Virus record (IMG/VR): IMGVR_UViG_3300035099_000516
Coordinates: 1 to 27,316 of that record
Origin: a virus
Direction: 5' to 3' (one strand)
DNA: 27,316 nt
Shown: one piece after another, positions 404 to 19,092 of the stretch
Layout: each line of letters begins with the position of its first letter
Position numbering within the stretch: the stretch's first letter is position 1
Program-made: the position numbers and the translations under genes
Notes under the pieces: generated by a model
What the model was told of the DNA's origin: nothing
What the model saw: the letters and a program-made list of their open reading frames with translations, nothing else
Databases searched by the model: none

Positions 404-409
404 CAATTC

Positions 410-458
410 GGGGGCCGGCCTTCAGCCTCGATCAAGGTGAGACCGCGGGCCGGCCCCC
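410..458 (+). terminator. Strong GC hairpin after head-region gene, no U-tract
   Basis: A perfect 11-bp inverted repeat (GGGGGCCGGCC at 410-420 and GGCCGGCCCCC at 448-458) encloses a 27-base loop, starting seven bases after the stop of the preceding gene. No T-run follows, so it is not a classical intrinsic terminator. It may protect mRNA 3' ends or attenuate transcription so that capsid-region messages are more abundant than those of the connector genes. Confidence 0.4.
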
Positions 459-491
459 CAGGACAAAGCACCAGGTGTGCGGAGGTAAGTC

Positions 492-893
492 ATGCGCGTA
501 GAGAAGCGAGACGAGAGCGCAGAGTCCAGGTCTGCGCCACCCACCGAGGCCGCGGCGGACGCGGGCATCGTCGAGGAGAGCGCGGTGGTCGAGACAGCGC
601 CGGAGCCGCAGGCGGCGGAGGTCGGCACAACGCCAACTCAGGCGCGGGGGCCCGCAGGCGGGCCGTTGTCGGCCATGATGGCGCTTCCTGAGCCGCAGCG
701 CACGGAACAGATGGAGCGGGCCGTCCAGTCGGGGCAAGCCTTCTTCATCCGGAGCAAGACCGGCGGTGCGGTGCGCGTCAGTTACGGCGAGCACGTGCTC
801 GAGGTGACGCCCGAGGGCCGGCAGTTCATGGCCCCGCATGCGATCCACCTGCTGTGGACGGCGCCGGACAAGGTCGAGGAGACCAGCGGCTAG
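492..893 (+). CDS. Hypothetical phage virion-associated protein
   Basis: A 133-residue protein with ATG start preceded by GGAGGT at 481-486 (5-base spacing). The N-terminal half (residues 1-55) is rich in Glu/Ala/Pro and looks disordered; the C-terminal half (about 75-125) has an ordered alternating pattern ending FMAPHAIHLLWTAPDKVEE. Residues around 9-16 (SAESRSAPP) are encoded by one copy of the dispersed 21-bp palindrome, so part of the disordered segment arose from a repeat. It lies between the head-region genes and the head-tail connector and is probably a minor head or scaffold-like component; this is positional inference only. Confidence 0.55.
   Translation: MRVEKRDESAESRSAPPTEAAADAGIVEESAVVETAPEPQAAEVGTTPTQARGPAGGPLSAMMALPEPQRTEQMERAVQSGQAFFIRSKTGGAVRVSYGEHVLEVTPEGRQFMAPHAIHLLWTAPDKVEETSG
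517..537. repeat. 21-bp dispersed palindrome, copy 1 (inside a gene)
   Basis: Arms GCGCAGA (517-523) and TCTGCGC (531-537), followed by CACCC. It matches copy 2 (4745-4765) at 18 of 21 positions by direct comparison. It lies in the coding sequence and is read as part of the peptide SAESRSAPP. Confidence 0.7.
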
Positions 894-909
894 CGCACCG
901 GAGGGGCCA

Positions 910-1491
910 GTGCCCGAGAGCCCGATTGACGCGACCGTAGGGGGCGAGGAAAGCAACTCCTACGTCACGCTGGAGGAGGCGGAGGCCTACTTCGCCCAGC
1001 GGCTGCACGCCGCCGCCTGGGACGATGCGAGTGAGGCAGACCACGAGAAGGCGCTGCTCACCGCGTGCCGGCACATCGAGGCATGCCAGATCCGGGTTCA
1101 TCGGCGGCCCTATGGCTCCACGAGCCTGTTCGGGGGAGATCCGCTCGAACCCGCCTACCCCACGCAGGCGCTGAAGTTTCCCCGCAAGCGCGACCAGGAC
1201 GCAACGGGCGCGTACATCATTCCGCGCCCGGTCAAGGACGCGGAGTGCGAGGAGGCGCTGGTGCTGCTCGCGCACGGGGCGGAGCAGGCGCAGCGGCGCG
1301 CGCTGCAGGCCGCGGGCGTGACGTCGTTCTCGGTCGAGGGCCTGAGCGAATCCTACGGCAGCCCCGGGCTGCGAGAGCCGCTGGAGAGCGTCGAGGCGCG
1401 CGGACTGCTCGCGCCCTACATTGAGCGAGGCGGGGTCCTGGCGACCTCTGACAGTCCGGACGGCGAGTTCACGCCTGGGAGCGGGCGATGA
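910..1491 (+). CDS. Head-tail connector (DnaT-like/gp6-like family)
   Basis: A 193-residue protein. I choose the GTG at 910 because GGAGGGG ends five bases upstream; a longer upstream reading overlaps the previous gene. The N-terminal half matches the phage family often annotated 'putative DnaT-like ssDNA-binding protein', really a head-tail connector: SNSYVTLEEAEAYFAQRL near residues 16-33, then W plus a helical stretch with KALLTACRHIE, and an ALKFPRK segment near 90-100 equivalent to the family's 'ALAWPR'. In virions this family forms the ring beneath the portal. The C-terminal part (VEGLSESYGSP) is also typical. It overlaps the next gene by four bases (ATGA), so the two are probably translationally coupled. 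Confidence 0.75.
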   Translation: MPESPIDATVGGEESNSYVTLEEAEAYFAQRLHAAAWDDASEADHEKALLTACRHIEACQIRVHRRPYGSTSLFGGDPLEPAYPTQALKFPRKRDQDATGAYIIPRPVKDAECEEALVLLAHGAEQAQRRALQAAGVTSFSVEGLSESYGSPGLREPLESVEARGLLAPYIERGGVLATSDSPDGEFTPGSGR

Positions 1492-1793
1492 TCCGCACCT
1501 ACCTGGCGCAGGCGGTTTACTGGCGCGCGCGAACCGGCAGCGACGAGAACGGGCAGCCGGTCTTCGCCGCGGCGGTGACGGTCAAGGGCCGCTGGGTCGG
1601 CAAGCGCCGCCTGGTGCGGGCGCAGAACGGCGAGCAGATGACGTCCGAGGCGACCGTGATCCTGCCCGCTTCGGCTGAGGTCGCGCCCGGCGACCATCTG
1701 TCGCAGGACGGGACGACTTATGTGGAGATCATCACCGTCTCGGCGCCGCCCGGCCTGGGCGGCCGGGTGGCGCAGCGGCTCGCATATGTGTGA
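1488..1793 (+). CDS. Head closure / minor capsid protein (head-tail adaptor)
   Basis: A 101-residue protein whose ATG overlaps the preceding stop (ATGA at 1488-1491). Its pattern is that of small head-completion proteins: an N-terminal strand (TYLAQAVYWRARTGSDENGQP), a conserved substitution-type stretch (VKGRWVGKRRLVRAQNGEQ), a middle strand set (SEATVILPA), then a GDHLSQDGTTYVE turn and a final strand. This order (R.G.D..G.P then V..R then GD.I..DG..Y) is seen in the minor capsid 1 / head closure families that seal the connector after DNA packaging. It lies directly after the connector gene as expected. Which family it belongs to is inferred from pattern, not from a search. Confidence 0.65.
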   Translation: MIRTYLAQAVYWRARTGSDENGQPVFAAAVTVKGRWVGKRRLVRAQNGEQMTSEATVILPASAEVAPGDHLSQDGTTYVEIITVSAPPGLGGRVAQRLAYV

Positions 1794-1836
1794 CCCTGCT
1801 TGCGCCCAGCGCGCAGGCAAGCAAGGAGAGTCCGAG

Positions 1837-2028
1837 ATGCCGGTTGAGAAGCAGTTCCGATGGTGGGTGACGGCGCGCAAGGCGCTGATTGCCGCCATCT
1901 ATGCGGGCGCGGCGGTGCTGGTCGCGGAGTTCAGCGACCTGCCGCCCGAGCAGTATGTGTGGGCGCCGGTGGCGATCGCGGCGGTGGAGGCCCTGCGCAA
2001 CCTGGTGAAGTTCCGCCTGGAGCGCTGA
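1837..2028 (+). CDS. Small two-segment membrane protein (holin-like)
   Basis: A 63-residue protein beginning at ATG 1837 with AAGGAGAG about eight bases upstream. After a basic start it has a hydrophobic Ala-rich segment (about residues 15-31, ALIAAIYAGAAVLVAEF), a short polar turn, a second hydrophobic segment (about 41-53, WAPVAIAAVEAL) and a basic C-terminus (KFRLER). Two membrane segments with charged ends fit a small holin or an inner-membrane structural accessory. The position among head-completion genes is unusual for a holin, and a second holin candidate lies at 16157 next to the endolysin. The lysis role is therefore only a possibility. Confidence 0.6.
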   Translation: MPVEKQFRWWVTARKALIAAIYAGAAVLVAEFSDLPPEQYVWAPVAIAAVEALRNLVKFRLER

Positions 2029-2031
2029 TGC

Positions 2032-2532
2032 ATGGCGAAACTTGGCCGCGAGTTCAGTCTCCAGGGCCTCGATGGCGTCATGCGGCAGTTGTCGCGCGAC
2101 GGGCCGGTATGGGAGCGCGCGCAGCGGGCGATGATCCGCGGGATGACCGAGAACACCGAGGACCTGCTGGGGCGAGCGATGCGCGACGCGCCGGTGGATG
2201 AGGGGACGCTGCGGGCCAGCGGCTACGCCACCGTCTATGCCAACGGCAAACCGGTGGCGCGGCGTGGGTTTCGGGAGGTGCGATCGGAGGCCGCTGAAAG
2301 CCCTGAGCGCTTCGAAATGCGGGAGCGACGCGCGGTACATGAGGGCACCCTGGGCGACGCGGTGGTGGGGCACGTCGGCTTCAACACACCCTACGCCCTG
2401 GCGCAGCACGAGCGCCTGGACTACAACCATCCCAAGGGCGGGAAGGCCAAATACCTGGAGGACAACCTCAAGGATCAGGCGGGCGCGCACCAGGCGAAGT
2501 TGCGCGAGCGCCTGCGGGAGGCTCTGGCATGA
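2032..2532 (+). CDS. Minor capsid / tail-component protein (Minor_capsid_2-like)
   Basis: A 166-residue protein starting at ATG 2032, three bases after the previous stop. The C-terminal part carries the motif of the 'minor capsid protein 2' / HK97-gp10-like tail-component group: GHVGFNTPYALAQHERLDY, then NHPKGGKAKYLED (residues about 114-146). The N-terminal half has the helical segment with APVDEGTLRASGY that is also typical of gp10-like tail-completion proteins ('P.dtG.LR.S'). These proteins act at the head-tail joint or in tail assembly. It overlaps the next gene by four bases (ATGA). Family assignment is based on two recognisable motifs and gene order and is fairly secure. Confidence 0.75.
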   Translation: MAKLGREFSLQGLDGVMRQLSRDGPVWERAQRAMIRGMTENTEDLLGRAMRDAPVDEGTLRASGYATVYANGKPVARRGFREVRSEAAESPERFEMRERRAVHEGTLGDAVVGHVGFNTPYALAQHERLDYNHPKGGKAKYLEDNLKDQAGAHQAKLRERLREALA

Positions 2533-2930
2533 GCCTGCTGGTGGACCAGTTGGCGGCCTATCTGCAGAGCCGGGGGGAGGGGACCGTGGGAACCGACATC
2601 TTCAAGTTCCAGCGGCCATCCTCTCCCCTGGCGGTGTTGAGCATCCACCCCACCGGCGGCTACACGCCCAATCCGTACTCCGAGCGCGAGCGGCCGACGC
2701 TGATGATCTTCGCGCGGGCGGGCGCGCCAAACGCCGCCCTGCAGAAGGCCTATGGCGCGTACAACAATCTGCGCAATCTGCAAAACGTCGACCTGGGCGG
2801 AGGCGTCTTCGCCCTGACCATAGAGGCGATCAACAGCCCGGCTTATGTCGGCACCGAGCAGGCCGCCAATCAGACGGCCCACCTCGCCTCGTTCAATCTG
2901 CTGTTCGATTTGCGCCGGCCTTCTTCGTGA
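2529..2930 (+). CDS. Tail terminator / minor capsid protein (Minor_capsid_3-like)
   Basis: A 133-residue protein translationally coupled (ATGA) to the preceding minor capsid gene. It begins MSLLVDQLAAYLQSRGEGTVGTDIF and then has a strand-rich body with GGYTPNPYSERERPTLMIFARA and a central helix (AYGAYNNLRNL). An N-terminal helix, a beta sheet and a conserved 'RPTLQI..R' strand are the hallmarks of the phage minor capsid 3 / tail terminator group, which caps the finished tail tube and joins it to the head. Order (gp10-like, then terminator, then major tail protein) agrees with siphophage late operons. No unusual residues were noticed. Confidence 0.7.
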   Translation: MSLLVDQLAAYLQSRGEGTVGTDIFKFQRPSSPLAVLSIHPTGGYTPNPYSERERPTLMIFARAGAPNAALQKAYGAYNNLRNLQNVDLGGGVFALTIEAINSPAYVGTEQAANQTAHLASFNLLFDLRRPSS

Positions 2931-2955
2931 GGCGGCGCAAGCAAGGAGGAGACAA

Positions 2956-3777
2956 ATGCCTGCTACCATCGAGAAGGTGATCCCGTTCTACGCGAAGGCG
3001 GGAGACTCGGCGATCGAGATCATCGGCGCGGGGTTTCAGGACGACCCGAGCTTGACCAAGGTCTACCACCGCAAGCACGGCGAGACGGCGTGGGAGGCCG
3101 TGGACCCGTCGCGGGTGACTTTCGTCTCGGCGACAGAACTCACCATCGCCATTGACGCGGCGAACACCGACGGGTGGGACCCGGGGCTCGATGACGTCGG
3201 GGTCAGCGACTACGGTGTGAGCACGCCCGACGGCTACATCGTCCAGGCGCTGTATTTCTACACCGCCGGGGTGGCCGATCCGGACGCGGTCATCAAAGGC
3301 GCGCCGGACGCGATCTACGTCGAGGGCCTCTACATGGGGCACACCCACGGCGGCCTCGATCTCGACCACACCGTCGAGACCGACGACATCGAGACCGACC
3401 AGTCGCCGGTGCCGGTGCGCACGGTCAAGCAGAGCGAGGGCTACACGATCAGCGTCCCCCTGGCGGAGGTCTCTCTGGAGAACCTGAAGGAGGTCTGGGG
3501 GTTGTCAGCGACCATCGAGGACCTCGGCGACGGGCGGCGTCGCCTGACCGGCGGCGGAGACACGACGCTGGTCAACCGGAGCGTCATGCTGGTGCTGCCG
3601 GCCGGGCAGGGCAAGAAGTGGGCGGTGTTGTTCTACCGCACCACGGTGGTAGCCCCCGGGACTCTTACCTGGTCGAAGGAAGACCAGGTGGATCTCCCGC
3701 TGGAGTTGACCGTATTGGCGGACACGAGCCGGCCCGTGGGCGATCAGGTCTTCCGCATCGAGGAGTACAACGCCTAG
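2956..3777 (+). CDS. Major tail (tube) protein with N-terminal IPT/TIG-like Ig domain
   Basis: A 273-residue protein. ATG 2956 has an excellent Shine-Dalgarno (AAGGAGGA at 2943-2950). Residues about 2-97 look like an IPT/TIG Ig-like fold: IEKVIPFYAKAGDSAIEI, IGAGFQDDPSLTKVY, then a VTFVSATELTIAI strand pair, a TPDGYIVQALYFYTA closing strand. Residues about 105-273 contain a tube-like beta domain with acidic loops (HTVETDDIETDQ), conserved Gly-rich turns and a hydrophobic RSVMLVLPAGQGKKWAVLFYRTTV core, ending with long strands typical of major tail proteins. Immediately downstream comes the tail chaperone gene, as expected for the tube gene. Assignment rests on order, length and fold-like pattern; an Ig domain at the N-terminus rather than the C-terminus is less common. 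Confidence 0.7.
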   Translation: MPATIEKVIPFYAKAGDSAIEIIGAGFQDDPSLTKVYHRKHGETAWEAVDPSRVTFVSATELTIAIDAANTDGWDPGLDDVGVSDYGVSTPDGYIVQALYFYTAGVADPDAVIKGAPDAIYVEGLYMGHTHGGLDLDHTVETDDIETDQSPVPVRTVKQSEGYTISVPLAEVSLENLKEVWGLSATIEDLGDGRRRLTGGGDTTLVNRSVMLVLPAGQGKKWAVLFYRTTVVAPGTLTWSKEDQVDLPLELTVLADTSRPVGDQVFRIEEYNA

Positions 3778-3806
3778 CGGCGGTTGGCGGCGATGAACTG
3801 ATGTCG

Positions 3807-3822
3807 GCGGGCGGCCGCCCGC
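3807..3822. repeat. 16-bp perfect palindrome in the spacer before the tail chaperone gene
   Basis: Bases 3807-3822 (GCGGGCGG/CCGCCCGC) form a perfect palindrome with no loop. It sits in the 160-bp non-coding stretch 3778-3937 between the tail tube gene and the tail chaperone gene. No promoter is evident there. It may be a protein site or merely a product of GC-rich composition. Confidence 0.3.
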
Positions 3823-3891
3823 AGCCGCAGGCGGCGATGCGCGGGCGGTTCGCCCTCCGGCTGGTGCACTTGTCCGCCGCAGCCTTGCCTG

Positions 3892-3911
3892 CCCCGAGCG
3901 TGGTCGAGGGG
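3892..3911. repeat. 20-bp dispersed palindromic repeat (GAGCG..G.CGA type), copy 1
   Basis: Bases 3892-3911 begin CCCCGAGCG and end TCGAGGGG, an imperfect palindrome. It agrees with the copy at 12486-12505 at 15 of 20 positions. Flanking AGCCTT (3881-3886) and AAGGCT (3915-3920) extend it into a longer hairpin just upstream of the tail chaperone start. Repeats of this type are familiar as scattered intergenic palindromes in several high-GC bacterial groups. Confidence 0.5.
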
Positions 3912-3937
3912 GCGAAGGCTGAATGGAGACGCGCATG

Positions 3938-4378
3938 ACCGATGAACGCAGGACCGAAGCGGCCCCCGTCGAGACCCCTCACCAGGGACCCAGCGCCGAT
4001 CAAGTGATGCTGGGCGATGTCCGCCGCTTCAGGGTGGGCGACCGTGAGCTGATCGTCCGCGCCTTCACCATCGGCGATTTCCGGCGCATGGCCCAGGAGT
4101 TGGGCGAACTCGCGCAGCGAGTCGTACGGGAGCATCCCGAGATTGACTTCGAGCATCTGGACCAGCATCTGCCAGCGGTCTTCCCCGTGGCCGCGGACCT
4201 GCTCATGCGGGTGCTGGCGCACCTGTTCCAGCTCGAGCAGGAGTTCCTGGAGGAACACCTGACGCTGGTTCAAGCGAGCGAGATCGTCGTCGCGGCGCTC
4301 GAGGTCAACCAGCTCCCGGAGATCGTAAAAAACGCCCGCAGCGCTCGGCAGCTAGTGAAGACGATAGCGGTTCCCTGA
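3938..4378 (+). CDS. Tail assembly chaperone, G product
   Basis: A 146-residue protein from ATG 3938; an in-frame ATG lies at 3923, but neither has a strong Shine-Dalgarno. It follows the tail tube gene and precedes the tape measure gene, the fixed place of siphophage tail chaperones. The N-terminal 20 residues are acidic and disordered, the rest is strongly helical (FTIGDFRRMAQELGELAQRV, LLMRVLAHLFQLEQEFLEEHLTL), typical of TAC proteins that bind and chaperone the tape measure protein during tail polymerisation. Codons 131-132 (AAA AAC) lie on a slippery site at 4327-4333 that lets some ribosomes shift to -1 and continue into the T reading frame. G alone ends at TGA 4376-4378. Confidence 0.8.
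   Translation, partial: TDERRTEAAPVETPHQGPSADQVMLGDVRRFRVGDRELIVRAFTIGDFRRMAQELGELAQRVVREHPEIDFEHLDQHLPAVFPVAADLLMRVLAHLFQLEQEFLEEHLTLVQASEIVVAALEVNQLPEIVKNARSARQLVKTIAVP
4327..4333 (+). promoter_or_regulatory. Programmed -1 ribosomal frameshift site (A AAA AAC)
   Basis: The heptamer A-AAA-AAC is in the X-XXY-YYZ register of the G frame (codons GTA AAA AAC). Slipping back one base places two AAA codons in the T frame, which is open from there to the stop at 4783-4785. The G stop lies 43 bases after the site, so the T extension can only be made by slippage upstream of it. Such a site at the end of the tail chaperone gene is a conserved arrangement in siphophages. No clear downstream stimulatory stem was identified. 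Confidence 0.85.
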
Positions 4379-4785
4379 ACCTGGGCTGGGCGGGCGCTTA
4401 CGACTTGCTGATGGCGGAGTACGGCATCGCGTCTCCGGAGCAGATTACCTGGGGATGGACGCCGGCGCAGGTGTTCGTCGCCTTTGAGTCCATTCGCCGG
4501 CGGCGGCTGCTGGAGCAGGTCGAAAAGATCGAGAACACGCACCTGGCCATGACGGCGGCCCAGGGTGGGAAGAAGGGCTTCAAGGCGCTGCGCCATTACC
4601 TGCGGCGGCTGCGGCACGAGGCGGGGGTGACCATTCGCGGGGCCACCGCGCAGGACCTCGTGCAAGCGATGGGCCTTTCCATGCCCCATTGGACCCATTC
4701 GGGAAGCTCAGGGCAGGTAGGGTCGGGGCCGGCAGCCGCATCAAGCGCAGATTCCAAATCTGCGCCACCGGGTACTGACACATGA
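4334..4785 (+). CDS. Tail assembly chaperone T domain (expressed as G-T frameshift fusion)
   Basis: This reading frame is -1 relative to G and has no convincing start of its own; the first usable codon is a TTG at 4405 without a Shine-Dalgarno. Read from the slippery site it adds about 150 residues to G. Early residues LGWAGAYDLLMAEYGI then WGWTPAQVFVAFESIRRRRLLEQ form helices, followed by a basic helical stretch (KGFKALRHYLRRLRHEAGV) and a low-complexity Ser/Ala/Gly tail. The tail includes SADSKSAPP encoded by a dispersed palindrome. In lambda-like phages the G-T fusion recruits the tape measure protein and tube subunits. The stop overlaps the tape measure ATG (ATGA at 4782-4785). Confidence 0.75.
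4745..4765. repeat. 21-bp dispersed palindrome, copy 2 (inside the T frame)
   Basis: Arms GCGCAGATT (4745-4753) and AATCTGCGC (4757-4765) with CCA between them, followed by CACCGG. It is translated as SADSKSAPP, in the same reading phase as copy 1. Confidence 0.8.
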
Positions 4786-7700
4786 CGGTCGGCGAGATAG
4801 TCGCGGTCCTGAAGGTGGACGCCACCCAGTTCCGGCAGGGCCTGGCGAAGGCCAACTCCCTGCTGGAGCAAAACGGCGCGCTTGCCACGCGCGCCGCGAC
4901 GATGCTCGCTGGATTCTCCGCAGCGATCGTCGGAGCCTTCGCTTACTTCACGAAACAGGCCGTCGAGTTCGAAGCCGCGATGCGCAACGTGAACTCGATC
5001 CTCAAGCAGAGCGAGGAGAACTACCGCGCCACCTCCGCCGCCGTCCTCGCCCTGGCCGGCGACGTCGGGCAAGCCCCGGCGGTTCTTGCCCGCGGGTTGT
5101 ACGACATCGTCTCCAGCGGATTCGAGGGGGCCGACGCGCTGCAAGTGCTGGAGGCGTCCGCCCGAGCGGCCACCGCCGGCCTCACCGACACCGCCACCGC
5201 GTCCAGGGCGATCGTGGCGACTCTCAATGCGTATGGCATGGGCGCGGATGAGGTGGGGCGCGTCTCCGACGTCCTCTTCAAGACGGTCGAGCGCGGAGTC
5301 GTCACGTTCGGCGAACTGTCCCAGAACCTGGGCGAGGTCATCTCTACGGCGGCGCAGGCGCGCGTGCCGATCGAAGACGTGGGCGCGGCGATCGCGACCA
5401 TGACGAAGGCCGGCATTCAGGCGCCCGAGGCGGTCACATCGCTCAACCAGGTGCTGCTCTCCTTCATCCGCCCCACCGACCAGGCGCGGGAGGTCGCCAA
5501 GCAATACGGCATCGAGCTCAACGCGACCACCCTCGCCGCCCTGGGGCTGGGCGGGACGATGAAGCAGCTCGCCGAGCGGCTGAGGACCAATACGACCGAA
5601 ATCGAGCAGCTCATCAAGATGGGGGCCAGCGAGGCCCAGATTATGATGCTCGTCGCCACGCGCGCGGGCATGACGAGCGAGGCGCTGGCGGAGCTCTTCC
5701 CCAACGTGCGCGCACTGCGAGGAGCCCTGGCGCTGGCGGCGGAGGAAGGCAAGCAATTCTCCGAGGACATCGAAGCCATGGCCGCGGCGACCGGCTCCAC
5801 CGCGGCGGCGTTCGCCGAGCAGGGCAAAGCGTTTCAGCAGGAATGGGCGAAGACCTGGGCTGGGGCGCGCGCCTTCATGATCAAGACCGGCGCGGACTTC
5901 ATCTTCGTGCTGCAGGGAATCGCGTCGGCGCTGAAAGCCCTCATCACCCTTGCCGAGGCCGTGCCGCAGCCGGTGCGCGTCATCGTCGCGGTGCTGGCGC
6001 TTGTTGCGGCGGGGCTCGCGGCGGTGACCGCCGGCTTCATGATGTGGAACACGCAGATGGCCGGCGGCCTGACGCTCGCCGCGGCCATGACCGGCGCGAT
6101 GGCTCAGATGACCGGGGCCATCGCCGCGGCCAATGTGCAAATCACCATTCATACCTTCGGCCTCACGCGTATGGGCGCCGGCCTCAAGGCCGTTGCCGGG
6201 TACGTGACCAACTGGCGCGGCATCCTGTGGGACGCCACGATGTGGTGGAAGAAGCTGTGGATCGCGGCGCGCTCGCCGGGCGTGCAGGGGCTGGGGCTTG
6301 TCGGCGTCGCCATCGCAATCGTCGCCATCGGCACCGCCGCGCTCAACGCCGCCGCCGACCTGAAGCGCCTCAATGCCGAGTTCGCGGACCTCCAGAAGAA
6401 AGCGCGCCAGATGCCCGAGGTCGCGCCCGAGGTCATGAAGGCGGCAGCCGATCTGAAGCCGACCTACTTCGACGTCCTGAGCGAGAAGGTCAGCAAGTGG
6501 TTTGGAATCCAGTCGGCCCACATGAACCTTTACCGCCAGCAGGTCGCCCTGGCCGCCGGCGCTTTCGAGGTGGCCGAGAGGCGCAAGGCAGCCGCCGCCG
6601 CGGGCACGGCGGCGCTGCAGCAGGATCTCCTGGCCGCCGAGCAGGGTGCGCTCAAGCTCCGGCTGGAGGCGATTGACAAGCAAGCGGAAAAGTGGGTCCG
6701 GGCCGGCCGGGACGAGGTCGCGGTGACCAAGTGGGCCGAGCGCGAGAAAGCCAAGGCGCGCGGCGACGAGAAGATGGCCGTTATGCGCATCGAGGCGGAG
6801 ATCCTCGAGGCCCAGGGCAAGTCGCTCGAGGCGCGCCTGAAGATGATAGATATCGAGACCGCCGAGCGCGTGAAGTCGCTGATGGAGGCCGGGCGCGCCG
6901 AGCAAGAGGCGATGGAACTGGCCGAGCAGTGGGCCAAGGAGCAGCGGCGCAAGGCCCGCGACGAGGAAGCACGCGAGGAAAAACTGCGAGCCGAGGAGCG
7001 CATACGCCGCTTCGAGGACACGGCCGGCAGCATAGTCTCCACCTGGCGCACGGCCGCCGACAACATGCGCCGGGCCGGGCGGCTGCAGGCGGACGACTAC
7101 GCCGCGCAGATGGTGCGCATCCTGCAGTTCATCGAGCAGATCAACGAGGCGCAGCGGCAGGCCGGACAGGCGCCGGTCCTGGTGGACGAGCGCCGCCAGG
7201 CGATCGAGGACCTGGGCAATCTGCAGAAGGAGCTGACGGACGACGTCGCCGAGAAAGAGCGCCGCCTGCAGGAGCAGCGCCGGGAGAGGGCGCGCGAGCA
7301 GCGGGAGTGGGCCAAGCAGCTGCACGACTACGAGATGCAGATGCACGATCTCGCCTTCCAGCATCGGCGCGATCTGCTGACCGTGGCCGGCGAGCTGGAG
7401 GCGAAGCAGGCCAAGCAGATCGTCGAGGAAGAGATCGCGCGCCTTCAGAGCCGCCTCTACTACGAGCGCCTGACGGCCGAGGAGCGGTTGACCACCGAAA
7501 AGCGCCTCAATGAACTGAAGGCGGCGGCCGCGGGCGAGGAGCAGGCGGTCGTGGCCGCTCGCATCCAGCAGGCGCAGATCAACGCCGACGAACTGCGCAT
7601 GCTGCAGCAGAAGCTGGGCTACCAGAAGGTGGGGGCCGAGGAGCAGCTCGACGTCGCCAAGCGGCTGCACGACCTGATCATGGAGATGGCGCGAGCAGGC

Positions 7701-8135: not shown

Positions 8136-8146
8136 ACATGGTAGCG

Positions 8147-8656: not shown

Positions 8657-8718
8657 GGTGCCTCTCCTCCGGGAGTTGTTTCCGCGAGGTTGTTCCATAA
8701 TCCAGGGGAGTCTTTACA

Positions 8719-9096
8719 GTGCCCAGCGCCTGTTACCTGAGCAAGCCGGACGACAGCGAGAAGACGTACCTCGACGAGGACCCGACGGCCTACGATGATG
8801 CACCGCCGGAGCGCCGCGCTTCGTCGGTGGCCACGCTTGGCGGCGGGCGGGTGTGGCAAGACTTCGGGGCGAGGGATGTCGACCGCGAGCTGCGCGTGCG
8901 CTGCGACTGGATGAGCCAGGCGACGCTGGACGCGCTCAGGGCCAAGTACGCCGCCGTCGGCCAGTTGTGGAAATGGGTGGATCACAAGGGGCACGACTAC
9001 CGGGTGTTTTTCGCCGACTTGCGGGCGGAGCGCATCCGGGCGAACGCAGCGTACCGGGTGGAGATGCGGCTGGAAGTGGTGCAGGTGGTGACATGA
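8719..9096 (+). CDS. Distal tail / minor tail protein (gpM- or Dit-like)
   Basis: A 125-residue protein starting at GTG 8719 with AGGGGAG eight bases upstream. The N-terminus is acidic (DDSEKTYLDEDPTAYDDAP), followed by a beta-rich region: VATLGGGRVWQDFG, RELRVRCDW, a helix ATLDALRAKYAAVGQ, then LWKWVDHKGHDYRVFFADL and a final strand RVEMRLEVVQVV. Strand, helix, 'W.W.D..G..Y.V.F..L' and a closing strand follow the pattern of lambda gpM/DUF2460-type minor tail proteins and the N-domain of distal tail proteins, which attach the tail tip. Position just after the tape measure gene supports this. The start lies 62 bases from the divergent reverse-strand gene, so both share one short intergenic region. 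Family not confirmed. Confidence 0.6.
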   Translation: MPSACYLSKPDDSEKTYLDEDPTAYDDAPPERRASSVATLGGGRVWQDFGARDVDRELRVRCDWMSQATLDALRAKYAAVGQLWKWVDHKGHDYRVFFADLRAERIRANAAYRVEMRLEVVQVVT

Positions 9097-9244
9097 CGGG
9101 CGGCGGGAACGCGATAGGCGCGCCAACAGGGGCAGGCTTGCGGGCACGCGGGGCGCTGTGGGGCGCTCACGGCCCGGGACGGGCCAATGGCGCACCCGCG
9201 CCGGAAGCGGGGCGCACAGGGGCACGTGGCGCAAAACACGGGGG

Positions 9245-9502
9245 CTATCCGCGCTGCTCGCTGTCCGCCTGTGATGCCTCCACGAGAACCTCGGCGGTAA
9301 CAGTCGCCATCTCGCCCGAGAGTTCAAGCACCAGGCCGAGGAAGAACCTGGCTTTCTTCTGGAAGCGCTCTTGGGCCTCCGGGTCGGGCGTCAACTCGTG
9401 GCTGAAGGAGAGGATTTCGGCCTCGAAGTGGTCCTCGATCTGGTCCCAGCGCTTCGCCCAGCGCGCGCGCACTTCGGCTGCCACTTGCTCGGGATTCATC
9501 AT
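9245..9502 (-). CDS. Small helical hypothetical protein on the reverse strand
   Basis: An 85-residue reverse-strand protein beginning at ATG 9502 (a second ATG follows directly) with CAGGAG about seven bases upstream on this strand. A longer open frame to 9598 starts without a Shine-Dalgarno and reads like random sequence. The protein is acidic and helical: QVAAEVRARWAKRWDQIEDH, then EAQERFQKKARFFLGLVLEL and EMATVTAEVLVEASQ. There is no signal peptide and no known motif. It is the second reverse-strand gene set among forward tail genes, again suggestive of a moron. The stretch 9097-9244 between the distal tail gene and its end is G-rich and shows no gene. Function unknown. Confidence 0.5.
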   Translation of the reverse strand: MMNPEQVAAEVRARWAKRWDQIEDHFEAEILSFSHELTPDPEAQERFQKKARFFLGLVLELSGEMATVTAEVLVEASQADSEQRG

Positions 9503-9586
9503 GCGGGTCTCCTGTCTGCGTGCCCCGCACAGGCAGGGCTGTGGGGGATTCAATGGGTTATTCCATAGACCGGCGGGGAGACTGCT

Positions 9587-10297
9587 ATGGCCAAGCAAGC
9601 AACGAAATACCTGAGCGACGGGGTGACTCCGGCCGGCGCGAGCGCCGACGAGGGAACGGTGCGCGACGGGCAGGCGACCACGCCGCGGCGGCTATGGTGG
9701 AAGAACACCTCGACCGCCAGCGAGACGCTAGTCAATACCCGCTTTCGCCGCGTGCAAGCGGGCGCCAATGACGGATACAACTTCCTGCAGATCGCCGCGG
9801 ATGTCCCGGTATCGCCGCCTGCCGCGCCGACTCTCGCCCTGGCGGCCGGAACCGAACTCGGCATTGGCGCTTACAAGTATGCGATGACCTTCTACAACCC
9901 CAACGGTGAAACATCCGCCGGCGCTGAGGCGCAGATCACCACCACCAGCGGCAACCAGCGAGTGCAGCTTTCTGACATCCCGACCGGGCCGTCGGGCACC
10001 ACCGGCCGGCGCATCTACCGCACGACGGTGGGCGGGGCGCAGAAGAAACTGGTGGCCGCCATCGCCAACAACACTGCGACCGACTACCTCGACCAGGTTC
10101 CCGACGCGAGCCTGGGGGTTGATATTCCTACACTCAACACCTCGGGGTCGCCGGGGACGTGGCAGACCGCGAACATCACCGTGGGCGATATGACGGTGGG
10201 CCAGTATGCCGCCTGCTGGATGCGCTACAACGTGCCGGGCGGGACGACGCAGATCGGCAACCCGCGCCGGGGCTACGTGCAATTCGAGGAGAGTTAA
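9587..10297 (+). CDS. Tail structural protein with Ig/FN3-like domain
   Basis: A 236-residue protein from ATG 9587 with GGGGAG about ten bases upstream. Residues about 1-70 form a first domain (KNTSTASETLVNTRFRRVQAG) resembling the N-terminal assembly part of tail proteins. Residues about 77-180 form an FN3-like unit of a type common in phage fibres and host-attachment proteins: LGIGAYKYAMTFYNPNGETS, then a strand and GTTGRRIYRTTVGG, ending TATDYLD. A last portion (TWQTANITVGDMTVGQYAACWMRYNVP) is beta-rich. The likely role is a baseplate or fibre subunit at the tail tip. An intrinsic terminator lies about 90 bases downstream, so this may be the last gene of one transcription unit. Confidence 0.6.
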   Translation: MAKQATKYLSDGVTPAGASADEGTVRDGQATTPRRLWWKNTSTASETLVNTRFRRVQAGANDGYNFLQIAADVPVSPPAAPTLALAAGTELGIGAYKYAMTFYNPNGETSAGAEAQITTTSGNQRVQLSDIPTGPSGTTGRRIYRTTVGGAQKKLVAAIANNTATDYLDQVPDASLGVDIPTLNTSGSPGTWQTANITVGDMTVGQYAACWMRYNVPGGTTQIGNPRRGYVQFEES

Positions 10298-10384
10298 CGG
10301 CGGCGCGCCGGGCCGTGATCCGGCGCGGACAACCACATAGCCCAGACGAGGCGGACTGATCATCCGTCGGGTCTGACCGACCTG

Positions 10385-10423
10385 AAGCCCTGGTTCTCGC
10401 GCGAGAGGGAGCCAGGGCTTTTC
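10385..10423 (+). terminator. Intrinsic terminator within the tail gene series
   Basis: Inverted repeat AGCCCTGG (10386-10393) and CCAGGGCT (10412-10419), with an inner TCTC/GAGA pairing (10395-10398 with 10403-10406), followed directly by TTTT and then CGTTT. A smaller hairpin (GTCGG 10366-10370, CCGAC 10377-10381) lies just upstream. Stem, loop and T-run make this the most convincing terminator in the window, although tail genes continue after it. Confidence 0.75.
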
Positions 10424-10459
10424 GTTTGGGCGGCCGGCACAGGCAAGGAGGATATGGAG

Positions 10460-10996
10460 ATGGCTGGAGCAGCGGACGTTTTGCAGTGGCGCTGCGTTAC
10501 CACGCTGCGCAAGTTCGAGGCGGATATCGAGGAGTACCGCCGGCGGTTCGGGCGGGCCGCGGGTGAGCGGCTCTTCGAGGCGGAGCAGCAGCCCTTCGAG
10601 GAGCGGGTGATTGAGGGCAACCTGCTGCTCCAGGAGGGCATCCAGGCGCTCTTCACGCTGCTCATCGGCGGCAGCGAGACCGCCTTCAACAACGCCAACG
10701 CGCGCATCGGCGTGGGCAATGGGACCGCGGCGGCGGAGGACACGCAGACTGGCCTCCAGGGGGCCAGCACCGCGTTCAAGGGAATGGACACCGGCTACCC
10801 GCAGGTCGGCACGCTGGCCGACAAGAAGTGCACCTGGCGGGCCTCCTTCGGCTCTGCCGAGGCTAACTTCGCCTGGCAGGAGTGGACCGTGGACAACGGC
10901 GCGACCCCCAACAAGAACCTCAACCGCAAGGTGGAGTCCCTGGGCACGAAGACGACGGGGACGTGGATGCTTACGGTTACGGTCTCACTTGCGTAG
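10460..10996 (+). CDS. Phage structural protein (tail-tip/fibre-associated), hypothetical
   Basis: A 178-residue protein. ATG 10460 is eight bases after AAGGAGG (10445-10451); the in-frame ATG at 10454 is too close to it. The N-terminal third is helical and charged (LRKFEADIEEYRRRFGR, AGERLFEAEQQPFEERV). The remainder is beta-rich and Gly/Asn-rich: ETAFNNANARIGVGNG, DTQTGLQGASTAFKGMD, then ANFAWQEWTVDNG and a final TTGTWMLTVTVSLA strand. This organisation occurs in many uncharacterised tail proteins of environmental phages, perhaps as tail-tip or fibre proteins. It follows the intrinsic terminator, so either antitermination or an unseen promoter must express it. No precise function can be given. 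Confidence 0.55.
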   Translation: MAGAADVLQWRCVTTLRKFEADIEEYRRRFGRAAGERLFEAEQQPFEERVIEGNLLLQEGIQALFTLLIGGSETAFNNANARIGVGNGTAAAEDTQTGLQGASTAFKGMDTGYPQVGTLADKKCTWRASFGSAEANFAWQEWTVDNGATPNKNLNRKVESLGTKTTGTWMLTVTVSLA

Positions 10997-11014
10997 ATGG
11001 ATCGGGTCTGACGC

Positions 11015-12457
11015 ATGAAGTGCGCAGTCGGCTCATACACCGGGAACGGCACGGATAACCGCGCCATCACGGGCGTGGGTTTCCAGCCCGACCTGGTCAT
11101 CATCAAGAACCGCGTATCGAACTGGGGCTGCTTCCGCACGTCGGGGATGACGGGCGACAGCACCGCTTACTTCGCCCAGGCGGCAGCCAACTTCGCTGGC
11201 GGCATAAAGAGCCTGGATGCGGACGGCTTCACCGTCGGCACCCATGCGAGCGTCAACACCAGCGGCCAAGTCTATGACTGGCAGGCCTTCAAGGACGACG
11301 ACGCGGGCGACTTCAAAGTCGGCTCCTATGTCGGCACCGGCGTGGACAACCGCAACATCACCGGCCTGGGATTCCAGCCCGACCTCGTGTGCCTGAAGGT
11401 CAACGGCACCGCGCAGGACGGCGTGTGGCGCACCGCCTCCAACTCCGGCGATCAATCCATGCGATTCTCCGCCGCCGACGATGCTGCGGATCACATCCAG
11501 AGCCTGCTCGCCGACGGCTTCCAGGTAGGCCTGTCCCAGAACGCGAGCGGCTCCACCTACCACTGGTTCGCCTTCAAAGCGGTGGCTGGCTTTATGGGCT
11601 ACGGCGCCTACACCGGCGACGCCACTGACAACCGCAACATCACCGGCCTCGGCTTCCAGCCCGATCTGCTCTGGGTCAAGGGGGCGGGCCTGATTCGCTG
11701 CGCTGTGCGCCCCTCGACGCTGACCGGCGACTCCACGGTGTTCTATAGCTTCAACACCGCCGCCGCGGACTGGATTCAGGCACTGCTGAGCGATGGTTTC
11801 CAGGTCGGGACGCAGCTCAATGCAAGCGGGGTCGCCCACCGCTATTTCGCCTGGAAAGTCGGCGCGACCAGCGCCCCCACCGAGAAGTCCTCCTCTGATT
11901 CTGGGGCCGGCGCCGAAAGCGCGAGCGTCGTGGAGGCGTACTCGGGCTCCGATTCCGGCGCTGGAACCGAAAGCGTGCTCCTCGCCGCCGAGATATCGCC
12001 CGCCGACTCCGGGGCGGCGACCGAGACCAGCGAACTCGTCACCGAGGGCGAAGAGATCCAGAAGACTGGGGCCGATTCCGGCGCGGCGACCGAGACCGCA
12101 GCCCTGGCCACCGCGGCGGCGGCGCTCGATTCAGGGGCGGCAACCGAAGTCAGCGAGCTGCTCGTCCCGGTGGCCTCCGCCGACGCAGGGACCGCGACCG
12201 AGACCGCCCTGATCTTCCCACTGGTCGACTTCTTCGAACTTGCGGTGACGGTGACGCCCGCGCTGACCGACCGATTCGAGCTGATCGCGCAGGTCTTACT
12301 CGACCGCGTCGCCGACTCATTCGAACTTCAGGTGGATGTCTCGCCCCTGGTGGCCGACCCATTTCTGCTGATGGCGACGATCATCAACCAGGACCAGGAG
12401 GCCGCAGCCGCCCAGGCGGTGATCGCGCCGACCGCCGAGGTGGCGTTCCTGGAGTAG
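11015..12457 (+). CDS. Repeat-rich tail fibre/adhesin protein (triple GFQPDL domain)
   Basis: A 480-residue protein made of three kinds of tandem repeat. Residues 4-93, 101-188 and 196-281 are three copies of a roughly 90-residue domain that begins with a G.YTG...DNR.ITG.GFQPDL motif, ends with a DGF.VG..... .Y.WFAFK-like segment, and resembles the DUF7483-type domain seen in phage tail proteins. Residues 295-404 contain six DSGA.TE-type units at irregular 15-25-residue spacing. Residues 405-456 hold four units ending in FEL or FLL. The C-terminus is Ala-rich. It probably forms an elongated fibre that recognises the host surface. The ATG at 11015 has no strong Shine-Dalgarno, so coupling to the gene 18 bases upstream is likely. 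The domain name is from memory, not from a search. Confidence 0.65.
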   Translation: MKCAVGSYTGNGTDNRAITGVGFQPDLVIIKNRVSNWGCFRTSGMTGDSTAYFAQAAANFAGGIKSLDADGFTVGTHASVNTSGQVYDWQAFKDDDAGDFKVGSYVGTGVDNRNITGLGFQPDLVCLKVNGTAQDGVWRTASNSGDQSMRFSAADDAADHIQSLLADGFQVGLSQNASGSTYHWFAFKAVAGFMGYGAYTGDATDNRNITGLGFQPDLLWVKGAGLIRCAVRPSTLTGDSTVFYSFNTAAADWIQALLSDGFQVGTQLNASGVAHRYFAWKVGATSAPTEKSSSDSGAGAESASVVEAYSGSDSGAGTESVLLAAEISPADSGAATETSELVTEGEEIQKTGADSGAATETAALATAAAALDSGAATEVSELLVPVASADAGTATETALIFPLVDFFELAVTVTPALTDRFELIAQVLLDRVADSFELQVDVSPLVADPFLLMATIINQDQEAAAAQAVIAPTAEVAFLE

Positions 12458-12519
12458 CGCAGATTCGAAGGGTGGCGCAAACCCGCCCTGAGCGCAGCCG
12501 AAGGGTCTCAAATCTGCGC
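12457..12519. repeat. 21-bp dispersed palindrome, copy 3, split by an insert
   Basis: Left arm GCGCAGATT (12457-12465) overlaps the stop of the fibre gene; right arm AATCTGCGC is at 12511-12519. The arms are 45 bases apart instead of three. The intervening segment contains a second palindromic repeat (12486-12505), giving a nested structure. Confidence 0.6.
12486..12505. repeat. 20-bp dispersed palindromic repeat, copy 2
   Basis: Bases 12486-12505 begin CCCTGAGCG and end CCGAAGGG, an imperfect palindrome with 15 of 20 positions shared with 3892-3911. It lies inside the split copy 3 of the 21-bp palindrome, in the 82-bp gap between fibre and hub genes. Confidence 0.55.
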
Positions 12520-12539
12520 TCCATAGAACGGCCTGAGAC

Positions 12540-14159
12540 GTGGCAATCGAGATCAAACCGACAACTTGCAGCATAGACTCCAGCCTCGAGAGCCTGGCCG
12601 ACGGCCTCGACCTGACGCTCGTGGAGGAAGACGCCGCCGCGCGCCTCTCCCCCACCGCGCAAGCCTGGCGGACGCTGACCGAGGGCGACCAGATCCGCGT
12701 GCGCCTCGGTCTGGAGGGAGTAGGCAGCGATGACTACGGTGTCTTTCGCGTGGACGAGTGCGCGCTGGAGGCGTCCGAGGATCGGTGGCTGACGCGGGTG
12801 CACGGCCGGGACAGCGCGGCGCTGCTGATCGAGGACCGCGCCGCCGAGGAGTACTCCCACGGCGCCTGGGACGAGGACAAACCCGACGACAAGACCCACC
12901 CCTCGGCGCGCAGCATCGCGCAGAAGTTGGCGGCGCGGGCATCGCTCAAGCTCGTGTGGGACGCGCCGAATTACACCCTGACCAAATTCTCGCTGCGCCC
13001 CGACGAGACCGTGGCAGCCGCCCTGGGGCGGCTGCTCGAGCCACTGCGCGTTTCTACGCGATACCGCGCCGACGCCTGGGTCTATGACGGCAACCTGATT
13101 GTGCGCCGCCGAGGTAACGGGCCCAATCTGGGCAGCATTGACTGTCGGCAGGGCCAGGTGCGACGGATCACCCGCAGTCGCCGCCCACAGGTGGGCGCGA
13201 TCACGGTGCGCGGCGCGACCTACTCCTGGTTCGAGCCCGCCCCGCCGGAGGCCGAGACGAAGAAGGCGGGCACGGGCGAAGGCGAGCCGCAGGCGAGCGT
13301 GCGCACGACCGAAGAAACGCCCACCCACCGCGTGGTGGAGACCGGGATCGTCCAGGCGAACGGCGAGTTCGTGGTCATCACCAGAGAGACCGAAGACCTG
13401 ACCTACCAGGACGTGACTGACGCGGAGGGCAACTGGCTGGGGCGAGTGCTGCTGAAGAGCGAAGCGCTGGAGGAGAAAGACCTCCACACCTCCAGTTCGA
13501 CGCGCAGCCGGAAGGTCACCTCATTCGGCTACGACAGTCAGTGGCGGATGGTGCTGCGCGACGAGCGCACCGAGGAGTACCAGGCGGACGGGACGCTCAA
13601 ACCGGTCGCGCACGTGCTCACACGCTATGAGCAGGCGACGCCGACCGATGTGCGCACCGTCACCACCGAGTTCGAGATCGCGGCGGACAAGACCGAGACG
13701 GTGAAGGAGGGCTTCCCCAAGTGGGAGCAGCAGCCCGGCCACCTGCAGTCTGTGCTCCAGACCGCGCCCGATCCTGATCGCGCGTGGGAGCCGAAGCCCG
13801 ACAAGGGCAAGCCGGATGACCAGAAGAAGGTCGAGAAGACCCGCCAGTACGAGGCGGCGGCCAACGGCGGCGGGGCCATCCCGCAGGTCTACGAGAACAG
13901 TCTGCTCGCAAGCTCGGCCATCTGCTCGCAGATCGCCAACGACCTGGCCGCTGAAAGCGGCAAGTGGGTCTACGTCGTGGAGCTGCTCTGGCCGCGCCCC
14001 TTCCCCTACCGCAAGGGCGACAAGGTCACCCTTGCCAACCTGCCGGGCGGCTGCCCCGACTTAGCGAACGCGATCATCACCGCGGTGCGCACGACTTTCG
14101 ACGAGGAGGGAGCGCGCTGGGAGCACGAGATCAGCCTCGAGTGCTGGAGGGACGCATGA
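12540..14159 (+). CDS. Tail hub / baseplate protein (gpD- or Tal-like)
   Basis: A 539-residue protein from GTG 12540; the Shine-Dalgarno is weak. Residues about 1-130 form a tail-hub-like beta domain: strands with SLADGLDLTL, LTEGDQIRVRLGL and DDYGVFRVDECALEAS, then WLTRVHGRDSAALLIEDRAAEEY. This 'G..V.v..g' and 'HGRD' arrangement is typical of late control D/gp27-type hub proteins that form the ring around the spike. A domain from about 140 to 230 (THPSARSIAQKLAARASL, SLRPDETVAAALGRLLEPL) corresponds to the hub's second helix-strand unit. The C-terminal half is charged and beta-rich, with TRYEQATPTDVRTVTTEFEI and a QVYENSLLAS segment. It overlaps the next gene (ATGA). Confidence 0.65.
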   Translation: MAIEIKPTTCSIDSSLESLADGLDLTLVEEDAAARLSPTAQAWRTLTEGDQIRVRLGLEGVGSDDYGVFRVDECALEASEDRWLTRVHGRDSAALLIEDRAAEEYSHGAWDEDKPDDKTHPSARSIAQKLAARASLKLVWDAPNYTLTKFSLRPDETVAAALGRLLEPLRVSTRYRADAWVYDGNLIVRRRGNGPNLGSIDCRQGQVRRITRSRRPQVGAITVRGATYSWFEPAPPEAETKKAGTGEGEPQASVRTTEETPTHRVVETGIVQANGEFVVITRETEDLTYQDVTDAEGNWLGRVLLKSEALEEKDLHTSSSTRSRKVTSFGYDSQWRMVLRDERTEEYQADGTLKPVAHVLTRYEQATPTDVRTVTTEFEIAADKTETVKEGFPKWEQQPGHLQSVLQTAPDPDRAWEPKPDKGKPDDQKKVEKTRQYEAAANGGGAIPQVYENSLLASSAICSQIANDLAAESGKWVYVVELLWPRPFPYRKGDKVTLANLPGGCPDLANAIITAVRTTFDEEGARWEHEISLECWRDA

Positions 14160-15502
14160 GTCGGCTCGCAGACGCCATCGAGAAGATCGTGGCTGCCGCG
14201 CCCACCGTTGGCGCGGCGCGGGTGGATGCTCACACGCGCCCGGGCGAGGTGCGCCTCCGGGGACACGAGGATGCGGCGCTGGTGGCCGGCAACGCCATGC
14301 CCGCGATCGGCGAGCGCGCGCCGTTCGTGCGCCTGGGCGATGACCGCCTCGTGACGCCGCGAAATGCGCGCTATCGCATGCCCTGGGTCGCGCCGGCAGC
14401 CGGCCGCGTCTGGCAGCAAACCCTGGTCACCGACCTGGCGACCTACGGCCACGACGTGTATAAGGTCTTCCACATCTGGCAGGACGGCGCCGGCTACTGG
14501 TGGGTGAGCGCGGAGAAAGACCCGGCGGGCATCTACGATAACCCGGAGCCGATTCTCTTCCGCGGTCAGTTCGGGCAGACGCCCTGGGAGTACAAGGGCG
14601 CGGTGCCCGGGGCCAGGCGCGGCTACGTCATCGGCCACGGCGACAAGATCTTCGCCGTCTACCGAACGACCTCCGCCTATTTCCCCGTGGTGCGCTCGCG
14701 CCAGGGCACGATTGCCGGTGACGGCGGCATCACCTGGGGCGATGAATGGGACCTCGATCATGCGCCGTGGAACACCGAGCTGCGCTATCCGCACATGATG
14801 CGCGATCCCGCCGGCTACATCTGGCTCTACAATGCGCCGCGTGCCGGCTATCCCTTCGACCGCGTGATCTGGCGCTCCAACGATCCGGATTCCCTGGCCA
14901 ATGGATGGCAGCTCCGGCATCAGAGCACAGTGGTTGACAACCGCCCAACCGGCTTCCTCGCCTCGAATGGCAACCGCTGCGTGCTCCTGCGCATGCGCCA
15001 GATGGGATTCCCGGAGCTGTCGTGCTACATGGAGACCTCGGCCGATTGGGCGGCGACGCCGCAGGACCTGGGCTTCCCCGGCCTGATGTTCCGCCACGCC
15101 TGGTGGGGCGGCAAGTGGTGGCTGACCTACGGCGCGCCGGGCAGCGTGGCCTACCTCAACTATGGGCTGCTCTACATCGAGGGCGGCGACGGCGACACGC
15201 CCTCCTGGGGCGCGGCCCACTACATCGAGCCGGCGGGAACCAGATTCTACTTCGTGCTGCCCTATGGCAGCGGCAATCGCATCTCGGCCGTCTATGCGGC
15301 GGCCAATGAGTTGTGGCAGGCGGAACTGCCGAGCCTCAAGCAGGCGAGCCGCTTTCCGCGCGATTACGACGGGAACTTCCTGCCGGCCGGCACCGAGGTC
15401 TACCCGCTTTCGGTCGAGCCGCGCGGCGTCGCCGACGCCGATAACCCGGTGGTGATGTGGGAGGGGCACCGCGTGTGGGCGGCGAGGTGGGTGAATGCAT
15501 GA
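14156..15502 (+). CDS. Putative beta-propeller tail protein (sialidase/BNR-like)
   Basis: A 448-residue protein whose ATG 14156 overlaps the stop of the hub gene. After an N-terminal helical segment (MSRLADAIEKIVAAA) the sequence is Trp-, Tyr- and Gly-rich with repeated short strands: VFHIWQDGAGYWWVSAEKD, GRRGYV-like turns, GDGGITWGDEWDL (close to the Asp-box pattern S.D.G.TW), RDPAGYIWLYNAP and AWWGGKWWLTYGAPG. This periodicity suggests a five- or six-bladed propeller, as in receptor-binding or glycan-degrading tail tip proteins. Catalytic residues cannot be named from sequence alone, so binding rather than hydrolysis is equally likely. Order (hub, propeller, small OB-like protein) supports a tail-tip location. 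Confidence 0.55.
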   Translation: MSRLADAIEKIVAAAPTVGAARVDAHTRPGEVRLRGHEDAALVAGNAMPAIGERAPFVRLGDDRLVTPRNARYRMPWVAPAAGRVWQQTLVTDLATYGHDVYKVFHIWQDGAGYWWVSAEKDPAGIYDNPEPILFRGQFGQTPWEYKGAVPGARRGYVIGHGDKIFAVYRTTSAYFPVVRSRQGTIAGDGGITWGDEWDLDHAPWNTELRYPHMMRDPAGYIWLYNAPRAGYPFDRVIWRSNDPDSLANGWQLRHQSTVVDNRPTGFLASNGNRCVLLRMRQMGFPELSCYMETSADWAATPQDLGFPGLMFRHAWWGGKWWLTYGAPGSVAYLNYGLLYIEGGDGDTPSWGAAHYIEPAGTRFYFVLPYGSGNRISAVYAAANELWQAELPSLKQASRFPRDYDGNFLPAGTEVYPLSVEPRGVADADNPVVMWEGHRVWAARWVNA

Positions 15503-15756
15503 GCGCGGGCGCGACCAGGTTCGTGAACGCCGTTCGTCGGCTGGCCGGTCGCGGGGACCGCGCGGAGGTCGGGACGGTCGAGGGGTATTCCGGCGGCAAC
15601 CGCTACCGGGTGCTGGTGCGCGGGACGATCTACGACGACGTGCCGGCTGCCGGCGACGTCGAGGTTTCGGTCGGCCAGAGCGTCGCGGTGCTCGTGAGTG
15701 AGTCGCTGGGGCGGCCGGTGGCCGTGCTCGGCGCGCTGCGCCGGGGCGGGGAGTAA
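15499..15756 (+). CDS. Small OB-fold-like baseplate protein
   Basis: An 85-residue protein coupled (ATGA) to the propeller gene. The N-terminal 20 residues are basic (TRFVNAVRRLAGRGDRAEV). The rest reads like a five-strand OB fold: VGTVEGYSGGNRYRVLV, RGTIYDDVPAAGD, VEVSVGQSVAVLV, then GRPVAVLGALRR. Strand-turn-strand with 'G..V..y.....y.V...G' and 'v.vGd.V.vl' recalls the gpV/gp45-type OB domain of phage spikes and hub accessory proteins. The role is inferred from this pattern and gene order. A palindromic repeat begins four bases after its stop. Confidence 0.5.
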   Translation: MSAGATRFVNAVRRLAGRGDRAEVGTVEGYSGGNRYRVLVRGTIYDDVPAAGDVEVSVGQSVAVLVSESLGRPVAVLGALRRGGE

Positions 15757-15759
15757 GGA

Positions 15760-15780
15760 GCGCAGGTTTCAAACCTGCGC
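15760..15780. repeat. 21-bp dispersed palindrome, copy 4
   Basis: Arms GCGCAGGTTT (15760-15769) and AAACCTGCGC (15771-15780) form a perfect hairpin-capable palindrome around a single C, followed by CACC as in copies 1 and 2. It lies in the short gap before the next gene's Shine-Dalgarno. Confidence 0.8.
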
Positions 15781-15796
15781 CACCAGGAGGGATGAC

Positions 15797-16144: not shown

Positions 16145-16156
16145 GAGGGATCGGCA

Positions 16157-19077: not shown

Positions 19078-19092
19078 GCCCGGAAAGGAACG

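Follow-up and report, generated by a model that had tools for sequence, protein, structure and literature searches.

A short tagged palindrome occurs four times within about 15 kb of the IMG/VR virus record IMGVR_UViG_3300035099_000516, in and between phage genes, which raises the question of where such a repeat came from and how it entered this DNA. The window analysed here is the whole record of 27,316 bases, possibly itself a fragment. The four palindromes are probably bacterial repetitive extragenic palindromes (REPs) of the GTAG superfamily that were inserted into a tailed phage or provirus, likely by a REP-associated tyrosine transposase (RAYT) of the host acting in trans. As elements they are REPs of the GTAG kind, which is already known; the unusual part is their location in a phage. 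An earlier sequence-only reading had likened them to a REP or small mobile palindrome, and this is supported by tagged copies in bacterial genomes, by empty sites in related phages and by one RAYT locus.

Copies 1, 2 and 4 are exact 21-bp palindromes (517–537, 4745–4765 and 15760–15780), each directly followed by CACC. Read on the opposite strand, all three begin with GTGG and then the stem. Copy 3, listed by the sequence-only reading as a fourth, though split, 21-bp palindrome, is not itself one; it consists of half-arms GCGCAGATT and AAATCTGCGC, about 43 nt apart, with no CACC after them. It has a GTAG tag on its left instead (12454–12457), from which we conclude that it lies in opposite orientation to the others. 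Copies 3 and 4 had also been described as following stop codons. This is right for copy 4, whose first base is reached 3 nt beyond the stop of gene 15499–15756, whereas copy 3 contains one, the TAG of its tag (12455–12457) being the stop codon of gene 11015–12457. The family form is a tag, GTGG or GTAG, followed by the stem CGCAGRTT / AAYCTGCG, and the last tag base pairs in the stem here. GCGCAG-N9-CTGCGC was found three times in the window against a mean of 0.03 expected (at least three in 0 of 100 shuffles). The 25-base consensus including CACC, which was derived from these same copies, likewise gave three matches with up to 3 mismatches, and none in 100 shuffles.

The repeat is not restricted to this phage. 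A scan of genome contigs from 84,980 species for the CACC form returned four stretches, two in G001, a metagenome-assembled genome (MAG) labelled Bacillota, and two in G002, a Chloroflexi MAG (phylum Chloroflexota). With up to 3 mismatches allowed, strand matches rose to 9 + 13 in G001 and 63 + 59 in G002, compared with 3 + 2 and 2 + 2 for a reversed control; in such counts a single palindrome may score on both strands. Five of 151 sampled genomes in the phylum of G001 carry the CACC form with no more than 1 mismatch, all five in its 14-member class, and a shorter pattern at the same threshold is present in 6 of the 14 class genomes (control 0). In a check that the sequence-only reading had proposed, palindrome and flank thus occur together in cellular genomes, these being genomes other than that of the phage's host, and the tag is usually one-sided. 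Among the fetched loci, leaving aside copies no more than 12 bases from a locus end, 20 of 26 distinct class copies and 12 of 13 copies in G002 have GGTR on one side but not the other, and no copy has it on both. These sequences show the tagged family to be identical with chromosomal repeats. One class genome, G078, holds 11 + 9 strand matches (up to 1 mismatch) in 2.3 Mb; the window, with four copies in 27 kb, is denser, and a more REP-rich host is therefore expected.

A RAYT-type transposase, also to be looked for according to that reading, was found in G078. Y1_Tnp proteins are encoded in 11 of the 14 class genomes, at 33 places, and 13 Y1 loci were checked, which are all those listed for five of the six palindrome-bearing class genomes. 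The open reading frame (ORF) at L135:1669-2460 on the minus strand of G078 matches NF047646, the model for REP-associated tyrosine transposases, with 72 bits (E 4.6e-20), below the curated cut-off of 80, and GTGG-tagged copies lie in and around it at 1584, 2090 and 2267. The first is past the 3′ end of the ORF, the second is inside the RAYT gene and read in frame as ADLQSA, and the third reads ADCKSAP in the open frame but precedes a possible start at residue 84 and so perhaps belongs to the 5′ flank. For other REPs, RAYTs have been shown to cleave single-stranded REP DNA and to carry out strand transfer on it (PMC8266576). Other GTRG-tagged palindromes stand within 500 nt of 7 of the other 12 loci (five of seven in G050, one of three in G010 and one of one in G117), a count for which no chance expectation was computed. 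The G050 loci L128–L130, L133 and L134, with Y1 genes near palindromes such as GTAGGGCAGGAGCTTGTCTCCTGCCC, could possibly represent a second REP and RAYT set in the class of G001.

Related phages were sought with the major tail protein, which returned 15 IMG/VR loci at 58–72% identity; these are partial contigs, many of them short, and syntenic with the window across much of the module where they reach. The palindrome is present in none of the 15 (168 kb in total). Six of them match a loose arm pattern, solely within or close to the tape measure gene and at a sequence that is not palindromic. Empty sites could be aligned as gaps for sites 1 to 3. At site 3, all four aligned relatives have 0–9 bases between the genes, compared with 82 in the window, and the upstream gene ends in TAA or TAG straight after conserved residues. 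At site 2 the insert is absent from all nine aligned relatives; of the 12 with a homologue of this gene, L044 (1.4-kb gap), L045 (contig end) and L055 (weak similarity) were omitted. At site 1 an eight-residue gap overlaps copy 1 in all nine aligned relatives, in a variable N-terminus; here L053, L054 and L055, among 12 loci with a homologue, fall outside the alignment. In the three relatives that reach site 4, a GTG stands one base past the stop codon when inspected by eye, which is suggestive only, because the next gene in these relatives looks unlike that of the window. One of the nine relatives aligned at site 2, L051, has another insert, TCCGCCGTAGCTCGGGCGGAGGCGGA, some 30 bases long (11663–11717), at the junction where the window has copy 2.

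No relatives were found with genes 14156–15502 and 12540–14159 as baits, 25,000 bases of window DNA had no match among phages, and all phage matches of the tape measure protein were below 60% identity. The tagged pattern was not found in viral contigs, from which the window's own record may have been excluded. A first pattern matched 12 viral contigs, considered as a possible viral source; one of them, L005, with an other-strand match only, was left out of the comparison, and the remaining 11 were rejected as unrelated because they are AT-rich (36–39% G+C) and have other flanks. A near-palindrome, GCGCAGATTTAAAACCTGCGC, is conserved together with its flanks in these AT-rich loci (L004, L006–L015) and has no relation to that of the window.

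Copy 3 is split by a second repeat, CCCTTCGGCTGCGCTCAGGGC, and the inserted stretch with copy 2 contains another match, CATTCGGGAAGCTCAGGGCAGG, which precedes the palindrome and is translated as HSGSSGQ (Table 1; mismatches are counted to consensus strings of this repeat). This repeat also occurs in relatives L053 and L054, in the latter within the frame of a gene end, and its exact 22-base form is present in nine stretches of viral contigs. With up to 3 mismatches it gave four and two matches in 358,528 bases of class loci, which had been chosen for palindromes or transposases. In G050 two REP copies are split by the second repeat, as in copy 3, and in G010 it lies just upstream of a REP; a nesting pattern with 4–6-base spacing is present in one of the 14 class genomes (at two places) and with fixed 4-base spacing in none. 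Such shared composites, the chance rate of which was not computed, link the copies in the phage with those in bacteria more closely than does the short palindrome by itself. No mention of the sequence strings of either repeat was found in the open-access literature. Two head-to-tail copies of the second repeat stand just past a stop codon in L053 (7407–7452), where one frame reads HSTSSGQARSTSSGQ. In the window, the intergenic stretch 3780–3934 after the major tail protein gene looks mosaic-like, with repeat modules, one of which is the weak second-repeat match.

Copies 1 and 2 had been noted to be read in one phase, as SAESRSAPP and SADSKSAPP, and the translations confirm this. Copy 1 is downstream of a GGAGG Shine-Dalgarno sequence and an ATG start common to nine relatives. 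Copy 2 is flanked on one side by a conserved core and on the other by the start of the tape measure gene, and the gene that holds it ends in the TGA of an ATGA overlap, as in relatives such as L050; overlap with the next ATG is kept in most of the nine aligned relatives. With start signal and overlap conserved, both copies are translated, provided that their genes are. A shared phase of two copies arises by chance in one case of three and is weak evidence by itself. The phase is also that of the copy at 2090 in G078, and of that at 2267 if translated; given the first, the chance is 1 in 9 for three copies and 1 in 27 for four, a pattern noticed post hoc.

Table 1. Coordinates of the repeats in the window and of the genes that hold or adjoin them.
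Feature	Position	Strand	Remarks
REP copy 1, GTGG tag (CACC on + strand)	517..541	-	in frame in gene 492-893, SAESRSAPP
REP copy 2, GTGG tag	4745..4769	-	in frame near 3′ end of gene 4375-4785, SADSKSAPP
REP copy 3, GTAG tag	12454..12519	+	holds stop codon of gene 11015-12457; split by second repeat
REP copy 4, GTGG tag	15760..15784	-	3 nt past stop codon of gene 15499-15756
Second repeat CCCTTCGGCTGCGCTCAGGGC	12485..12505	-	nested inside copy 3; 0 mismatches; none at ≤2 mismatches in 40 shuffles
Second repeat CATTCGGGAAGCTCAGGGCAGG	4696..4717	+	2 mismatches; none at ≤4 in 40 shuffles
Weaker second-repeat match	3891..3911	-	intergenic, after major tail protein gene; 3 mismatches, 0.075 expected
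Gene with copy 1	492..893	+	structural region; no PHROG match
Gene with copy 2	4375..4785	+	upstream of tape measure gene; start codon uncertain, 4375 or 4405
Tail fibre-like gene	11015..12457	+	stop codon supplied by copy 3

Probably, a host RAYT, an IS200-like enzyme of the HUH type, acted in trans on single-stranded phage DNA, inserting the repeat during replication or during residence as a prophage. Copies would then survive where harm is small: at or just after stop codons, or as in-frame segments of protein ends that vary. We infer that the copies were moved by a RAYT, that this variant is present in the host and that they serve no selected function in the phage.

Several observations weigh against insertion of bacterial REPs by a host RAYT. 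The window itself gave no match in a search for Y1 transposases; target duplications were not seen at the copies by eye; and the copies are singles, kilobases apart, with none of the inverted pairs that are presumed to be the mobile unit. Among the 84,980 species the exact GCGC...CACC form is rare, limited to the four stretches, and GGTR flanks neither side in 6 of the 26 class copies and one of the 13 in G002. The window palindrome is absent from 12 of the 13 Y1 loci, so the link to RAYT depends on the single locus in G078, where the copies at 1584 and 2267 are one stem pair off the usual form (GGCAG for CGCAG); the sixth palindrome-bearing genome, G001, has no Y1 match. Since the E. coli RAYT does not tolerate any change of GTAG (PMC8266576), the GTGG copies would need a more tolerant enzyme; the Marinomonas RAYT still cleaves with GTGG (PMC8266576). 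Nor do the genes of the window point clearly to a host. Tail protein homologues were found in three of 251 phylum genomes, each a member of the G001 class, with no more than 24–32% identity, and major tail protein matches in 6 of 251 Chloroflexota genomes are weak (best E 1.7e-6). The AIR-synthase gene at the right end had matches in 124 of 151 genomes at E 0.001 and in 16 of 251 at E 1e-25, the best at 32–35% identity in either phylum, with neither preferred.

The alternative that survives best accepts the REPs but takes the record for a resident or decaying provirus, in which they would have arrived as in any stretch of chromosome and would say nothing on phage biology. We consider this a serious possibility, if the less probable one. 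The record may be a fragment, and its right part (22352–27069) has genes for an HD-domain protein, a DNA methylase and an AIR-synthase, the first and last of which are without PHROG match. However, the main structural ORFs are open, including a tape measure gene of 1117 codons, and the fifteen related IMG/VR records form a diverse group with the palindrome in none. It is improbable that the palindromes are selected RNA hairpins that stabilise the 3′ ends of phage transcripts or terminate them. All four can fold (−11.9 to −31.6 kcal/mol, z −2.0 to −4.5) and two stand at gene ends, but two others are in frame inside genes, relatives do without them, no T-run follows any copy, and no copy is among the 6 terminator-like sites found (6.7 expected); on the last two grounds intrinsic terminators were ruled out. 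Operators or other sites bound by a phage regulator, as several near-identical palindromes within one phage genome might suggest, are very improbable, given two copies within coding sequence and one overlapping a stop codon, relatives without copies, and the same tagged sequence dispersed in bacteria, in and around a RAYT gene.

If bacterial REPs did enter by way of a host RAYT, a wider reading offers itself, which we put forward tentatively and would not yet favour: host RAYTs may act on infecting phage DNA, and the tailed phages of this group may acquire several repeat families of chromosomal origin, including REPs, at places where insertion is tolerated, reading frames included, and carry them between bacterial lineages. 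Phage carriage, if true, would explain one tagged palindrome in distant phyla, though REPs are treated as old chromosomal residents. With four tagged copies within about 15 kb and relatives in which sites are empty, this phage offers a tangible example of REPs entering a mobile genome and suggests that phages may carry REPs between hosts. Among the papers listed in searches of the open-access literature we found no earlier report of REPs in phage genomes, an absence that is not proof. In the P. fluorescens group mobile DNA maps to regions without REPs (PMC3390384), and PMC3733652 mentions phage once, only regarding CRISPR spacers.

The left 18 kb of the window form a tail and head-tail module with genes for the major tail protein, tape measure, baseplate hub, fibre and an NlpC/P60 protein. 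Between tail genes, 8138–8717 and 9100–9586 each have an ORF on the opposite strand, with no Pfam match. Downstream of the module an amidoligase gene lies near a glutamine amidotransferase gene (18133–20054). The block at 22352–27069 encodes, besides the HD-domain protein and methylase, an unknown protein, its AIR-synthase being ThiL-like; it may represent cargo, a defence island or flanking host DNA. The idea of an IS5-type transposase at the right end was dropped after a Pfam search without match. An Rfam search of the window gave zero matches.

Among known systems, the promoter early stem-loops of T4-type phages are small palindromic intergenic cassettes that are phage-specific and carry early promoters. 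The window elements resemble them as small palindromic cassettes between phage genes, and differ in that no sigma-70-like promoter site was found in 400–16200. Miniature inverted-repeat transposable elements are 70–300 bp long (PMC3733652), with terminal inverted repeats and target duplication; the present elements measure 21–25 bp, with no duplication by eye. Rickettsia palindromic elements (via PMC3733652) also occur in frame in protein genes; a difference is that RPE-4 and RPE-6 are classed as CGTC repeats, which are without transposase link (PMC3733652). REPINs (PMC3116915) likewise contain REP bodies believed to be moved by RAYT, in inverted pairs at a fixed short distance, whereas the four copies lie kilobases apart.

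GTAG REPs are defined as 20–40 bp palindromes, one end of which bears an unpaired GTAG or a variant of it (GTGG, GTRG); the unpaired GTAG, the defining mark of one REP superfamily, is degenerate in some families, and most GTAG-20 elements of Opitutus terrae have GTGG (PMC3733652). The window copies are palindromes with such a tag at one end, and many dispersed chromosomal copies exist in genomes other than that of the phage's host. Copies 3 and 4 show the mostly intergenic location near 3′ ends; copies 1 and 2, which lie in frame inside genes, are exceptions of a type already reported (PMC3733652). The window differs in being a phage record with few copies, singles only, and in that the RAYT with these copies is in one distant genome, not in the phage's host. 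GTAG REPs are known with RAYTs that have adjacent copies (PMC3733652, PMC2817692), an arrangement seen for this palindrome at one of the 13 Y1 loci. Shared with GTAG REPs (PMC3733652, PMC2817692) are a short stem-loop that carries an unpaired GTAG or GTGG on one side, the position near gene 3′ ends, some in-frame copies, and stop codons from the tag, which GTAG REP termini often supply to neighbouring genes (PMC3733652).

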